Shown here: positions 1 through 37,172 of the stretch, one piece after another
Layout of the letters: each line of letters opens with the position of its first letter
How positions within the stretch are numbered: the stretch's first letter is position 1
Source of the DNA: Paenibacillus hemerocallicola
Lineage (GTDB): Bacteria; Bacillota; Bacilli; Paenibacillales; NBRC-103111
Assembly: GCF_006265175.1 (NCBI RefSeq)
Contig: NZ_VDCQ01000084.1
Location: forward strand, 1 to 37,353
Direction: 5' to 3'
DNA: 37,353 bases
Position numbers and translations under genes: made by a program
The notes under the pieces: model-generated
Told to the model about the DNA's origin: nothing
Seen by the model: only the letters and a program-made list of their open reading frames with translations
Databases searched by the model: none

Positions 1-225
1 TCCACGCCACCCGATTCGACCGCCCAGTCGCACCAGGATAGCGCTGAAATCGGCACTATGCGCGATCCGAGCATACCGTTTTCGCGGAATAAGGTTGGTT
101 TCAGCGCTATATTCTCCACGCCACCCGATTCGACCGCCCAGTCGCACCAGGATAGTGCTGAAATCGGCACTATGCGCGATCCGAGCATACTGTTTTCGCG
201 GAATAAGGTTGGTTTCAGCGCTATA
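1..225. repeat. Tandem 114-bp repeat; array A of the 51-62-51 dyad element
   Basis: Two copies of a 114-bp unit (1-114 and 115 to about 225) differ at two seen positions, and the window starts inside the first, so the array probably continues to the left. Each copy holds two 22-nt dyad units with ATA/TAT ends, at 38-59, 89-110, 152-173 and 203-224. Start-to-start spacing is 51, 63 and 51 nt. One of the two differences (C42 versus T156) turns a C-A mismatch in the first hairpin into a T-A pair. The short spacer also has inverted ends (CGCGA/TCGCG). From 226 to 373 I see no gene; the open frames over this stretch look incidental. Confidence 0.8.
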
Positions 226-1967: not shown

Positions 1968-2210
1968 GGTTTCTCTCCCCGTGGCATGAAGTAATAGAGC
2001 TTATTTCCATTTTGTTTTATATACTTTGGAGAATAACTCCATTCTATCACGAACCCGGCCGTTTGGAAAAGCAAAATTCGGCAGGAAAGAGACACAACCT
2101 CTCCGGTAAAAAACGTCGTCAGCATAGTTCGCCTCCAGACGCGCATGCATGGCATGACCGACGGAGGCTCGGCGCCTTTGCCGACGACCGGCAGACCGCG
2201 AATCGATAAA

Positions 2211-2397
2211 ATAACGGAACTGGCGTATCTTATTGACACGGTTACGCGTGTCGATGACAACATAACGGAAATCGGCTCCGCTATTCCACTGTTCATCCTC
2301 ATTTTCGCCCCGAAAGCTCCAAAATAACGGAAATGTGTGCCGTTATATTCGGAGACGTATCCAAATATGGAACAATAACGGAAATCGGTTCCTCTAT
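2211..2397. repeat. Array B of the 51-62-51 dyad element
   Basis: Four 23-nt units start at 2211, 2262, 2324 and 2375 (spacing 51, 62, 51). All begin ATAACGGAA. The third has perfect 7-bp arms (ATAACGG/CCGTTAT), the second and fourth close with TCCGCTAT and TCCTCTAT, and the first lacks a good right arm. The first short spacer contains a GACACG/CGTGTC hairpin. The middle spacer, reverse complemented, resembles that of array C (TCGGGGYGAAAATGA). Upstream, 1968-2210 holds no gene; it has a small GGAG-AATAA-CTCC dyad near 2030 and probably the promoter of the DUF4127 gene. Confidence 0.8.
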
Positions 2398-2465
2398 AGT
2401 CGGCAGCATATTGCTCCCGCCTCATCGACAGCCCTCCAGGTCGTATGCGGATTATGCGGATGCAT

Positions 2466-7093: not shown

Positions 7094-7126
7094 TGATCGC
7101 CAAAATAAACGGAAATCACCTCAATT

Positions 7127-7205
7127 TCGGCAACCCAGCCGCCTTAGGAAATCCATTAGGCCTGCAGCTTTGCGTCCCTACCTTTCGATAGGTTTGCCAT
7201 TTGTC
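7127..7205 (-). ncRNA. Cyclic di-GMP-I (GEMM) riboswitch aptamer
   Basis: Read on the minus strand the segment has the GEMM core in order: GGCAAACC, a CCTAT-CGAAAG-GTAGG stem with GAAA tetraloop, GGGACGCAAAGC, a second stem with GGCCTAA and TAAGGC that would hold the tetraloop receptor, then GCTGGGTTGCC closing the outer stem with GGCAA. This matches the well-known Vc2-type aptamer. An extended -10 promoter (TGCTATAAT, TATAAT at 7248-7243 on the minus strand) lies about 40 nt upstream. A terminator and the 57-aa gene follow. It should tie that gene to cellular c-di-GMP. Confidence 0.92.
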
Positions 7206-7321
7206 GATCTTAGTGAAAACTTGTCATATTCGAATCGATTTCATTATAGCATGACTACTTATAAAAAAGAACTACCTCCACCAAATTAAATAGGCATAAA
7301 GACCTATCCGATTCATTGCCG

Positions 7322-14633: not shown

Positions 14634-14701
14634 CTGCGACATCAAGATCCGCATACATCCCGGAGGTCCCTTAATGAAGCTGGCGCAACGTGCTGCCGTT
14701 A

Positions 14702-14887
14702 ATAGAGGAACTATATTCCGCTATGGTCTCGAATTCCGGTATACGGTTGAAAATAACGGAACCGACTTCCGTTATTTCGATCTGTCGGGGTGAAAATGAA
14801 CTGGAACTGCGGAATAGCGGAACGGTTTTCCGTTACTTTGCCATCAATTCAAGTGCTCGGCTCCATAGCATACTTCAGTTCCGCTAT
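14702..14887. repeat. Array C of the 51-62-51 dyad element
   Basis: Four 23-nt units start at 14702, 14753, 14814 and 14865 (spacing 51, 61, 51). The second is a perfect hairpin: 9-bp arms ATAACGGAA/TTCCGTTAT with a 5-nt loop. The first reads ATAGAGGAA...TTCCGCTAT, the third ATAGCGGAA...TTCCGTTAC, and the fourth keeps only its right arm (TTCCGCTAT). The middle spacer matches that of array B in inverted orientation. From 14888 to 15054 I see nothing else. Confidence 0.82.
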
Positions 14888-15054
14888 TTGTTACAGGAAC
14901 AACCCCGCTACGCCGCCTGCCACGGATCGCGACCTCGTTGATAAGCAGCCCCCCGCAATATCATGCCGACATAATTCCTCTCTTAAATGAATAAGACTTT
15001 CCCCTAGTACGGAGAAAGTCTGACGCTCTTTGCGATTTATATGCACGTTGTCGC

Positions 15055-15261
15055 TTAGCCCGTTATATACCAAACCAATGCAAAGCAGGAAGCGATTCCG
15101 GCCATAACATAGAAAAGCGTCAGCCGGATCGTATTGGCTCCCGTCTTTTTGTCATAATCCGGATTACCTTCTCTATTCGGCTTGGAATTCCCGATCATGA
15201 CCGTTGCGACGGCGGCAAAACCGATCAATACGAGCAGCGCGATTACAACCATAGCGTTCAT
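15055..15261 (-). CDS. Small two-helix membrane protein
   Basis: A 68-aa protein with two hydrophobic segments (about 3-22 and 46-66) around a polar loop containing NPDYDKKTGANTIRLT. ATG 15261 follows GGAGGG at nine bases; the further upstream start at 15297 lacks a site. Small proteins with this NPDYxKKTxxNxxRLT loop occur in Bacillales, sometimes under a bacillithiol-related name; I would not assert that function. It has its own transcript on the minus strand. Confidence 0.7.
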   Translation of the reverse strand: MNAMVVIALLVLIGFAAVATVMIGNSKPNREGNPDYDKKTGANTIRLTLFYVMAGIASCFALVWYITG

Positions 15262-15404
15262 CGTTTCCGTCCCTCCGTTTCCGTTTCGGTCGATCATCCT
15301 AATTGTATCGCGGAAGGCAGCAAAGTAAAGCGCCGGAGATGAACTCTTTGTGAACCGGTCGTTTCTACTCCACGAAACTTCTTTAATAGGAAGTATATAG
15401 AAAT

Positions 15405-15437
15405 ATTAAGGTTTTATTAAGGTTCATTCTTTACAAT
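15405..15437 (+). promoter_or_regulatory. Promoter region with 11-bp-spaced direct repeats before the LTA-synthase-like gene
   Basis: ATTAAGGTT occurs twice, 11 bp apart (15405 and 15416). Such direct half-sites at one-turn spacing are typical of OmpR/PhoB-type response regulators. They overlap the -35 position relative to TACAAT (15432-15437). The start codon is about 190 nt downstream, so the leader would be long. The remainder of 15262-15628 has no gene or known riboswitch that I can see. Confidence 0.45.
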
Positions 15438-15628
15438 CGGTAAAGGAGAGAAACTACGTCCATCAGGCATTGGCGACTATATGCAATCCATTCCCATTCC
15501 ATTTCCTGTCGAACACTCGGCGCATACAACATTGGAGACTCTTACCGGCTACGTGTGGAAGCCCGGTCTGCGGATCAACAATTACACTATATATGGGGTA
15601 CTAGAGAGAAAGGAGTGTATGGACCATC

Positions 15629-22995: not shown

Positions 22996-23290
22996 CAAAA
23001 AAGCCTTTCATCCCGTCAAGGACGAAAGGCTGTGCTTCCGCGGTACCACCTGAATTGGTCATAACGACCCTCTTATGCAGCGATTCATGCAGCATGCTCA
23101 TGCTCATGCTCAAGCCCATGATCGCACCCTTCTGTAACGGGAAGTCCCGCCGAACGTACTCCCAACTTTTCCGTCCGATACTCGTAGGCTTCTTTCATCA
23201 ATGCCGACTATCCGCTCCCACCCCCGCGGACTCTCTGCGAGTCGGTTCGTTGACTACTGTTCCTCTTCATTGCATTTCGCTATCTGTAAA
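22996..23290 (-). ncRNA. T-box leader of the GluRS-like gene
   Basis: On the minus strand the leader contains GAAGAGGAACAGTAG and AGAGAG (stem I landmarks), a GGGTGGGAGCGG segment, and the T-box antiterminator core AGGTGGTACCGCGG (23051-23038). A terminator follows: AGCCTTTCGTCC, loop, GGGATGAAAGGCT and TTTTTT (23032-22997). GAA at 23192-23190, followed by a purine after the ATTGATGAAA strand of stem I, is the best specifier candidate and would read tRNA-Glu. Uncharged tRNA should then allow read-through into the ligase gene about 35 nt on. Confidence 0.93.
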
Positions 23291-23401: not shown

Positions 23402-23619
23402 GGCGGAACAAATAGTTCCTCTATTTTTCAATACCAAGCCGAAATGAAGCGAAACGGAAGGATTAGTTCCTTTATCCGCTAGAAAAGGGTATTTTTCCGG
23501 GGCAATTCTTGAAATAGCGGAACTTAAAGTTCCGTACACCCCCATATTCGACCTCTCGGCAAACGATAGCGGAAATAATCGTTCCGTGACCGAAATATAG
23601 CGGAAGCTAGTCTTCCGTT
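23402..23619. repeat. Array D of the 51-62-51 dyad element, with a fifth unit
   Basis: Units of about 23 nt start at 23402, 23453, 23514, 23566 and 23597 (spacing 51, 61, 52, 31). Arms are mostly GCGGAA(C)/(G)TTCCGT; the fifth reads ATAGCGGAAG...CTTCCGTTA with a 5-nt loop. The middle spacer contains TTCCGGGGCAATTCTTG, resembling the TCGGGG motif of arrays B and C. It lies between the T-box leader and the small HTH gene. Confidence 0.78.
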
Positions 23620-23673
23620 AATCCATCGACAGTCCAGGCTCGGCAACATACATGCTTTCCTCCCTTTTTCGGC

Positions 23674-36777: not shown

Positions 36778-37172
36778 ATAAATGGAAAAGTTGAGGCTGT
36801 TGAAAAAGTCTTTGAGAGGAAGCGTCGGAGACTAGAGGTGGGGGAATGCGCTCCACATCCGTTAACATCGTGTTAGTTTGTAAGATTTTAGCGGTTACAA
36901 CACGATTTTAAAGTCAGCCACTTCGCTTTCCGCACATTTCCCCCATCTCTTTTTGTAGTGCAAATCTCTCTTTTGACTTTTTCAACAACCGGAAAAGTTG
37001 CAGTTATTTTCGGCAATCCAGCGCATTCCTCATCCGATAACTGGAAATATTACAGCTATTTCTCCCGCATGGGTGCTGTTCGCCATCACGGTGAGGAAAT
37101 AGATGGAGGTTTTCCAGTTAAACCTTCATTTCGGCCTTCGATGCCGATAATACCTGTACATTTTCCATCTAT
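36778..37172. repeat. Array E of the 51-62-51 dyad element, first unit split by a MITE
   Basis: The first unit is ATAAATGGAAAAGTTG (36778-36793) plus CAGTTAT (37001-37007); joined without the insertion and its duplicated 10 bp they make 23 nt. Later units start at 37037, 37099 and 37150. Counting the first as 36985, the spacing is 52, 62 and 51. Here the arms read CTGGAAA...TTTCCAG instead of CGGAA...TTCCG. Confidence 0.75.
36795..36990. mobile_element. MITE-like insertion, 196 bp
   Basis: Ends are GGCTGTTGAAAAAGTC and GACTTTTTCAACAACC, inverted with one mismatch. GGAAAAGTTG occurs at both sides (36784-36793 and 36991-37000), a 10-bp target duplication with one base (A36794) between it and the left end. 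The inside is partly self-complementary (AGAGGTGGGGGAATGCG against the reverse of CACATTTCCCCCATCTCT; AACACGAT). There is no coding frame. The ends resemble those I know from IS1182-type elements, so a transposase elsewhere may move it. Confidence 0.75.

Follow-up and report, generated by a model that had tools for sequence, protein, structure and literature searches.

We describe a dispersed intergenic element with a conserved four-unit layout, noticed in a window of 37,353 nt (the whole stretch of DNA analysed) from Paenibacillus hemerocallicola and found again across that genome and in other Bacillales. Each array holds four dyadic units with ATA and TAT ends at a fixed geometry, and the linkers between the units carry an AT/GC phase at the helical repeat. 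The two half-sites of a unit vary independently in the window genome, copies are dispersed, and a subset of them lies within MITEs. The arrays are probably DNA-level architectural platforms, which a putative protein would occupy and wrap or loop.

If this reading is right, selection keeps shape, not sequence, in a dispersed bacterial repeat, and bacterial genomes contain specific stretches written to be wrapped by a novel protein. A sequence-free search for nucleoprotein sites would then become directly testable, with the arrays as a probe for the wrapping protein. It would bear on the persistence of some small intergenic repeats and on how the two ends of an element come together when its length is near the persistence length of DNA. 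No description of the layout was found in Rfam or in a limited survey of paper listings; the placement of the arrays in a class of their own rests on that survey and on failed tests of membership in the nearest families.

Four units at a fixed spacing

A preliminary description of the window had listed five member regions. Arrays 2, 3 and 5 stand as clear members and array 4 as a worn one, and array 1 is doubtful (Table 1). The layout given there for arrays 2 and 3 agrees with ours, as do the start spacings of array 4, in which the ATA start is missing in units 1 and 2 and the TAT end in units 3-5. Array 5 is interrupted by a 196-bp insertion, possibly another MITE family, which has a 10-bp direct repeat (GGAAAAGTTG) on both sides; once it is removed, unit 1 is 23 nt long. 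Unit 4 of this array has GTAC within its inner half-site. Array 1 consists of two 111-nt copies, 114 apart and 98% identical, and owes its 51/63/51 spacing to one tandem duplication. Its units 2 and 4 are not among the dyads listed and its spacers are without AT phase (z -0.06); it is probably an unrelated tandem duplication and not a member.

Table 1. Arrays and associated features, with positions in the window.
Feature	Position	Strand	Description
Array 1	38..224	.	tandem duplication, period 114; 22-nt units
MITE around array 2, probable limits	2114..2464	-	worn terminal inverted repeats at both ends; approximate, by eye
Array 2	2211..2397	-	four units, 51/62/51; spacer AT phase z 3.0
Left end (terminal inverted repeat, worn) of the ~350-bp MITE around array 3	14634..14656	+	likeness to CTACGACAGCATAATYCGCRTAC, by eye
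Array 3	14702..14887	+	four units, 51/61/51; inner half-site ATAGCATAC in unit 4 is the orientation mark
Array 3, unit 1	14702..14724	+	ATAGAGGAACTATATTCCGCTAT, 23 nt
Array 3, unit 2	14753..14775	+	ATAACGGAACCGACTTCCGTTAT, 23 nt
Array 3, unit 3	14814..14836	+	ATAGCGGAACGGTTTTCCGTTAC, 23 nt
Array 3, unit 4	14865..14887	+	ATAGCATACTTCAGTTCCGCTAT, 23 nt
Array 4	23402..23620 (about)	+	worn; five dyads, 51/61/52/31; spacer AT phase z 2.5
Array 5	36778..37172	+	diverged member, CTGGAAA / ATGGA units; spacer AT phase z 2.35
Inverted-repeat insertion in array 5, unit 1	36795..36990	.	196 bp; ends GGCTGTTGAAAAAGTC..GACTTTTTCAACAACC

Doublets of the form unit-28-unit match five times in the window against 0.52 expected, a number reached in none of 100 shuffles. 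The window genome, a 9.65-Mb assembly of 167 contigs, was then scanned with a sequence-free descriptor of four ATA-N17-TAT units with gaps of 28/38/28, or with a middle gap of 39, allowing at most 3 mismatches. It matched at 108 places (gap 38) and 58 places (gap 39), counts into which tandem arrays enter more than once; the reversed control gave 0 matches and a middle linker lengthened by half a turn 1 place. The preliminary description would have been refuted by a spacing confined to the window copies; the spacing recurs genome-wide and in other Bacillales and, as proposed there, is better conserved than sequence. Recent duplication of one sequence, named there as an opposing explanation, disagrees with spacer identities between copies that fall to 0.22.

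Because descriptor searches select for spacing, two tests free of it were carried out. Half-site pairs sought with any gap from 17 to 47 permitted numbered 127, and the gap was 28, 38 or 39 in all 50 matches listed. At 20 loci picked on unit sequence alone, the 72 neighbour spacings of up to 120 were 51 (43 times), 61 (19), 62 (6), 50 (2) and 52 (2). Perfect ATARCGGAA...TTCCGYTAT dyads number 114 in the window genome (reversed control 0) and are all 23 nt among the matches listed, though 23-27 were permitted. Some arrays have grown in tandem with a 112-nt period, which is 51 plus 61 (L005; C135 as L219). At L005 and L127 the linkers repeat along with the units at this period, rather than being all different as the spacers of a CRISPR would be.

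Distribution and genomic neighbourhood

In a draw from the same genus, family and order, 18 of 97 other genomes matched with at most 3 mismatches, most of them at 1-3 places, and four same-genus genomes held 0 or 1 copies each. At class level 397 other Bacilli genomes were drawn, of which 8 matched with at most 1 mismatch, each holding 1 to 31 copies (control 0), and two Rossellomorea genomes hold 66 and 17 copies (control 0). A scan of named genomes returned at least 100 stretches; among the 80 matches listed all come from Bacillales genera, including Solibacillus, Lysinibacillus, Neobacillus, Rossellomorea, Ureibacillus, Cytobacillus, Sporolactobacillus, Paenibacillus and Cohnella. None of 397 other genomes of a phylum draw matched (15 of them were Bacilli), and the gap-38 descriptor had no exact match in viral contigs. 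We excluded as evidence of spread one genome with 1 match and a control of 1 (G006), other single weak matches, and G057, where 12 descriptor matches stand beside 9 in the reversed control; this last genome may hold another dense regular repeat. So patchy a distribution fits poorly with an essential host function.

No neighbouring gene of the arrays recurs convincingly; the largest protein cluster near them covers 13 loci and, by eye, resembles ABC transporters. With ORFs called mechanically, gene orientation in the window genome is unbiased (11 convergent, 10 divergent and 20 co-directional among the 41 placed of 49). In the named set, convergent and divergent pairs stand at 13:7 at arrays versus 23:46 at other neighbour pairs (p 0.02), a mild convergent excess that is compatible with avoidance of promoters.

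Places where genomes differ were inspected for empty sites. Beside the left neighbour gene of array 3, the array is absent in four same-genus genomes (G001-G004). One of them, G003, has a DUF554 gene at the matching place, the first part of which is matched about 10 bp beyond the array. Window positions 14897-15450 match the start and upstream region of that gene, and the rest of the gene is missing beside array 3. The gain of the array therefore came with a deletion and is no clean insertion. Two polymorphic places between Rossellomorea genomes likewise differ by more than the array and show no clean insertion. As a separate observation in Rossellomorea, a 286-bp block with one array is present as three tandem copies in one of the two genomes (L291:8822-9579) and as a single copy in the other (L295:7075-7260).

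Mobility and MITE context

The elements spread as intergenic mobile DNA, with some copies within unrelated MITE families. One subfamily of the window genome forms a MITE about 344-360 bp long, bounded by 23-bp terminal repeats (CTACGACAGCATAATYCGCRTAC). Of 20 regions selected because they hold this repeat, both ends are present in 15, at a distance of 344-360 bp (314 in one), and facing pairs of the repeat on one contig within 1 kb number 10, all 344-360 bp apart. By eye, runs of at least four T or A lie on both sides of 14 of these 15 copies, and several of the flanking T runs belong to terminator-like hairpins. The left repeat of the MITE around array 3 also follows the T run of such a hairpin without a gap; the right end of this MITE was not recognised by eye. 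A flank scan of unselected elements exceeded z 4 in 14 of 65 cases in the window genome and in none of those of S. merdavium (16), Solibacillus faecavium (8), Bacillus PS06 (4) and R. vietnamensis (4). Four copies in Neobacillus mesonae sit in a different MITE, with 8-bp duplications, read by eye, in all four.

A rather unlikely alternative is that the array itself is mobile and that its shape is kept by selection for transposition. Such a very short transposon would have the outer units as terminal repeats, and synapsis of the 190-bp element would be aided by the inner units together with the phased linkers. Copies are indeed patchy and lineage-specific, and in some further genomes dispersed copies share little more than the bare array: in Bacillus PS06, among the top-listed matches, shared blocks start and end within about 10 bases of the outer units, and several pairs in S. 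faecavium and R. vietnamensis have similar limits. However, these limits are perhaps set by divergence, and other pairs in the same genomes extend further. No target-site duplication was seen by eye beside bare arrays, and the two polymorphic places described above are not clean. In a subset of window-genome copies and in Neobacillus mesonae, the mobile unit is bounded by other terminal repeats and duplications, and no longer, autonomous copy bounded by the CTACGACAGCATAATYCGCRTAC repeat was recognised in the window genome with up to 2 mismatches.

Helical phase of the linkers

The reading as a wrapped or looped platform draws on the linkers, which lie outside every search pattern and whose phase signal is thus free of search selection. 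Their AT content oscillates roughly every 10.3 bp, in register with the ATA and TAT termini of the units. The phase is positive in 70/70, 99/99, 18/18 and 20/20 elements, against 65/137, 103/186, 18/34 and 20/40 of the flanks. With the 5 nt beside each unit removed, it is still positive in 70/70 elements of the window genome, 99/99 of the named genomes and 36/38 of the others (same-length flanks: 51/137, 108/186 and 37/74). In a set of 45 elements, nominally one from each genome (Paenibacillus koleovorans, at least, enters twice), 44 are positive, with a mean z of 2.87 and 39 above 1.64. Array 3 taken singly has a weak phase (z 1.49; reached by 144 of 2000 shuffles). At the dinucleotide level, AA/TT is enriched 4- to 5-fold at the AT phase, and SS 3- to 11-fold at the opposite phase; in the Bacillaceae set TA shows no phasing.

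Static curvature, computed with a wedge table, depends on the set. Elements are more compact than shuffles in 68/73 cases in the Bacillaceae set and 25/33 among relatives and the class set, and the feature is absent in the window genome (17/39) and in the Paenibacillus/Cohnella set (8/19). It was therefore dropped as a common feature, and bendability rather than fixed curvature is what the elements would share.

On another reading, which we consider improbable, the arrays would be strong sites for DNA gyrase, like Mu SGS or BIME-2, and the unit sequences a matter of history. According to PMC6379681, the gyrase motif of E. coli spans 130 bp as a symmetric pattern of periodic GC content, with two 47-bp arms around a 36-bp centre and a period of 10.75 bp, and gyrase cleavage sites are over-represented in BIME-2. 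Like the arrays, this motif and the Mu strong gyrase site are long symmetric DNA with helically periodic GC, explained by wrapping. The arrays differ in having four sequence-defined dyads and a period of about 10.2-10.35 bp: 10.35 is fitted in the linker interiors of 168 gap-38 elements and 10.17 is the unit period (183 bp over 18 turns, gap 38), with the phase running continuously through the array centre and over all 18 turns. Spacer power at 10.75 is lower, yet not nil (0.24 against 0.57 at 10.25), and a gyrase site leaves the invariant ATA/TAT ends and the conserved half-sites unexplained. A period under 10.5 would fit nucleosome-like wrapping better than a gyrase wrap. If the partner were gyrase or a known nucleoid protein, the arrays would become a variant of architectural repeats.

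Unit sequences and half-sites

The unit consensus in the window genome is ATARCGGAA-N5-TTCCGYTAT. All eight half-sites read ATARCGGAA except the inner half of unit 4, which is ATARCRTAC; this was derived from 49 of 68 elements, the other 19 having been dropped as not orientable by the unit-4 motif, and the constancy of its TAC is partly due to that selection. The unit body varies by genus (ATAAGCGGAA, ATAACGCTGT and ATAGGACTG types among the examples), and in some genomes the two halves of one unit are different words. Constant across genomes are ATA-N17-TAT and the 51/61/51 layout, both of which the searches asked for.

Units look constrained in place, on a small sample of sequence comparisons. 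In the window genome, where two copies have a spacer identity below 0.35 (null 0.25), their units retain an identity of 0.74 (76 of 1176 pairs, with 49 of 68 elements used). Six comparisons were made between two Rossellomorea genomes, in which most aligned blocks are 87-98% identical. Over the four in-place pairs that were summed, 24 of 368 unit sites and 52 of 376 spacer sites had changed (p 0.001); one of these pairs has nearly the same rate in units and spacers (9 and 10 changes), and the fourth pair (L269/L264) is of uncertain orthology. The two comparisons with other tandem copies were omitted; one was misaligned and in the other the units changed more than the spacers (11 vs 8).

The preliminary description had the arms of a unit change together so that pairing is kept, and had left the choice between a multi-site protein platform and a folded RNA. 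Arms do covary between genomes, but within the window genome they are independent. There, in 168 oriented units (42 of 51 elements, 9 rows having been dropped beforehand for tandem shifts, duplication or being off-register), Watson-Crick and wobble pairing at arm positions 4-9 equals the expectation for independent arms. A-C mismatches and G-U pairs occur at chance frequency at positions 4/20, and A-G mismatches are present at positions 5/19 in 38 of the 168 units. Pooling the named set gives pairing above chance at positions 6-9, which would be the case if the two halves of a unit share the dialect of their genome. Shuffling within genomes left no pairing excess in S. merdavium (64 units), L. 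fusiformis (48) or the Rossellomorea genomes (88 and 44); in Solibacillus faecavium (32 units of mixed types) the arms pair above shuffles, 2 of 300 of which reach the observed value.

A structured RNA, with four hairpins within a transcript, is on these data very improbable. In the window genome the units can form hairpins of 9 bp, and the pooled set and S. faecavium pair above chance; against this stand the independent arms of the window genome, the lack of excess in four of the five other genomes, and the many units of Paenibacillus koleovorans and Cohnella that are, by eye, not self-complementary. We know of no RNA meaning for AT/GC phasing at the helical repeat. The hairpin reading was set aside on arm independence, and of the two options first proposed the multi-site platform is the better reading, the folded RNA being at odds with independent arms and helically phased linkers. 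Searching the window with Rfam at the gathering score gave only a T-box and a c-di-GMP-I riboswitch, neither of them at an array. The former is a T-box leader (RF00230, 105.7 bits) at 23015-23279 on the minus strand, just left of array 4; the latter (RF01051, 78.1 bits) lies at 7126-7208, also on the minus strand.

Proposed architecture

The preliminary interpretation is partly supported, and the spacer phasing, the mobile flanks and the range of unit sequences in other genera have been added to it. The platform would span about 186-190 bp. Each 23-bp unit would be a putative dyadic protein site, formed by ATAR and about five dialect-specific bases, present twice around a 5-bp centre. Unit starts 51, 61 or 62, and 51 apart correspond to five, six and five turns at about 10.2 bp per turn, an equivalence of spacing and helical turns that had been proposed from the window and that holds; all units therefore lie on one face of the helix. 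The linkers are free in sequence but place AT in phase with the unit ends and GC half a turn away, as nucleosome-positioning DNA does. Four dimers, or two tetramers on rigid unit-28-unit doublets, might then keep the DNA compactly wrapped or tightly looped. The bend may help to bring together the two ends of very short mobile elements or, alternatively, may serve a host nucleoid role; the patchy distribution favours the former.

A more specific proposal, which we put forward tentatively and hold to be less likely than the general one, is that this geometry-defined, dispersed element of Bacillales encodes a nucleosome-like wrap. Its protein partner would have switched sequence dialect from genus to genus without any change in the shape of the complex, and unrelated MITEs would have taken the element up as a bending or synapsis cassette.

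Comparison with known repeats

Eukaryotic nucleosome-positioning DNA has AA/TT and SS dinucleotides half a helical turn out of step, repeating in less than 10.5 bp. The arrays share both properties; they differ in being bacterial, discrete and dispersed and in having four conserved dyadic sites, and no histone is implied.

Among bacterial repeats, the BIME/REP elements of enterobacteria are also dispersed intergenic palindromes in ordered clusters, and BIME-2 is linked to gyrase, a DNA-wrapping enzyme. In the arrays, unlike these, the unit sequence differs by genus while the geometry is fixed, and an AT/GC phase of about 10.3 bp runs through 186 bp. That the units are REP/REPIN-type palindromes moved by a RAYT transposase has, despite their dispersed, intergenic and often clustered occurrence, very little probability: by eye no GTAG or CGTC tag is constant in the unit consensus or the other dialects, and the transposase domain Y1_Tnp (PF01797) gives only 3 matches at two places, all with internal stops, in a window genome with more than 100 arrays. 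REPINs are described in PMC3116915 as inverted doublets with compensatory changes, and compensatory stem changes were not found in the 168 window-genome units or in four of five other genomes, S. faecavium showing an excess. REP/RAYT was set aside for lack of a tag, for lack of an intact RAYT in the window genome and for the independence of the arms. The broken Y1 transposase genes lie at G000:C81:96431-96792 and C110:75452-75649.

A subset of the arrays is flanked by terminal inverted repeats and target duplications, as prokaryotic MITEs are; unlike a single MITE family, they occur in unrelated MITEs and also without detectable terminal repeats. Some prokaryotic MITEs carry IHF sites, according to PMC10969869. 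In PMC2267715 (Table 3), Bhal-1 of B. halodurans is a 74-bp family of 36 copies, an intergenic stem-loop family; its 74 bp equal one unit-28-unit doublet, a likeness in length only.
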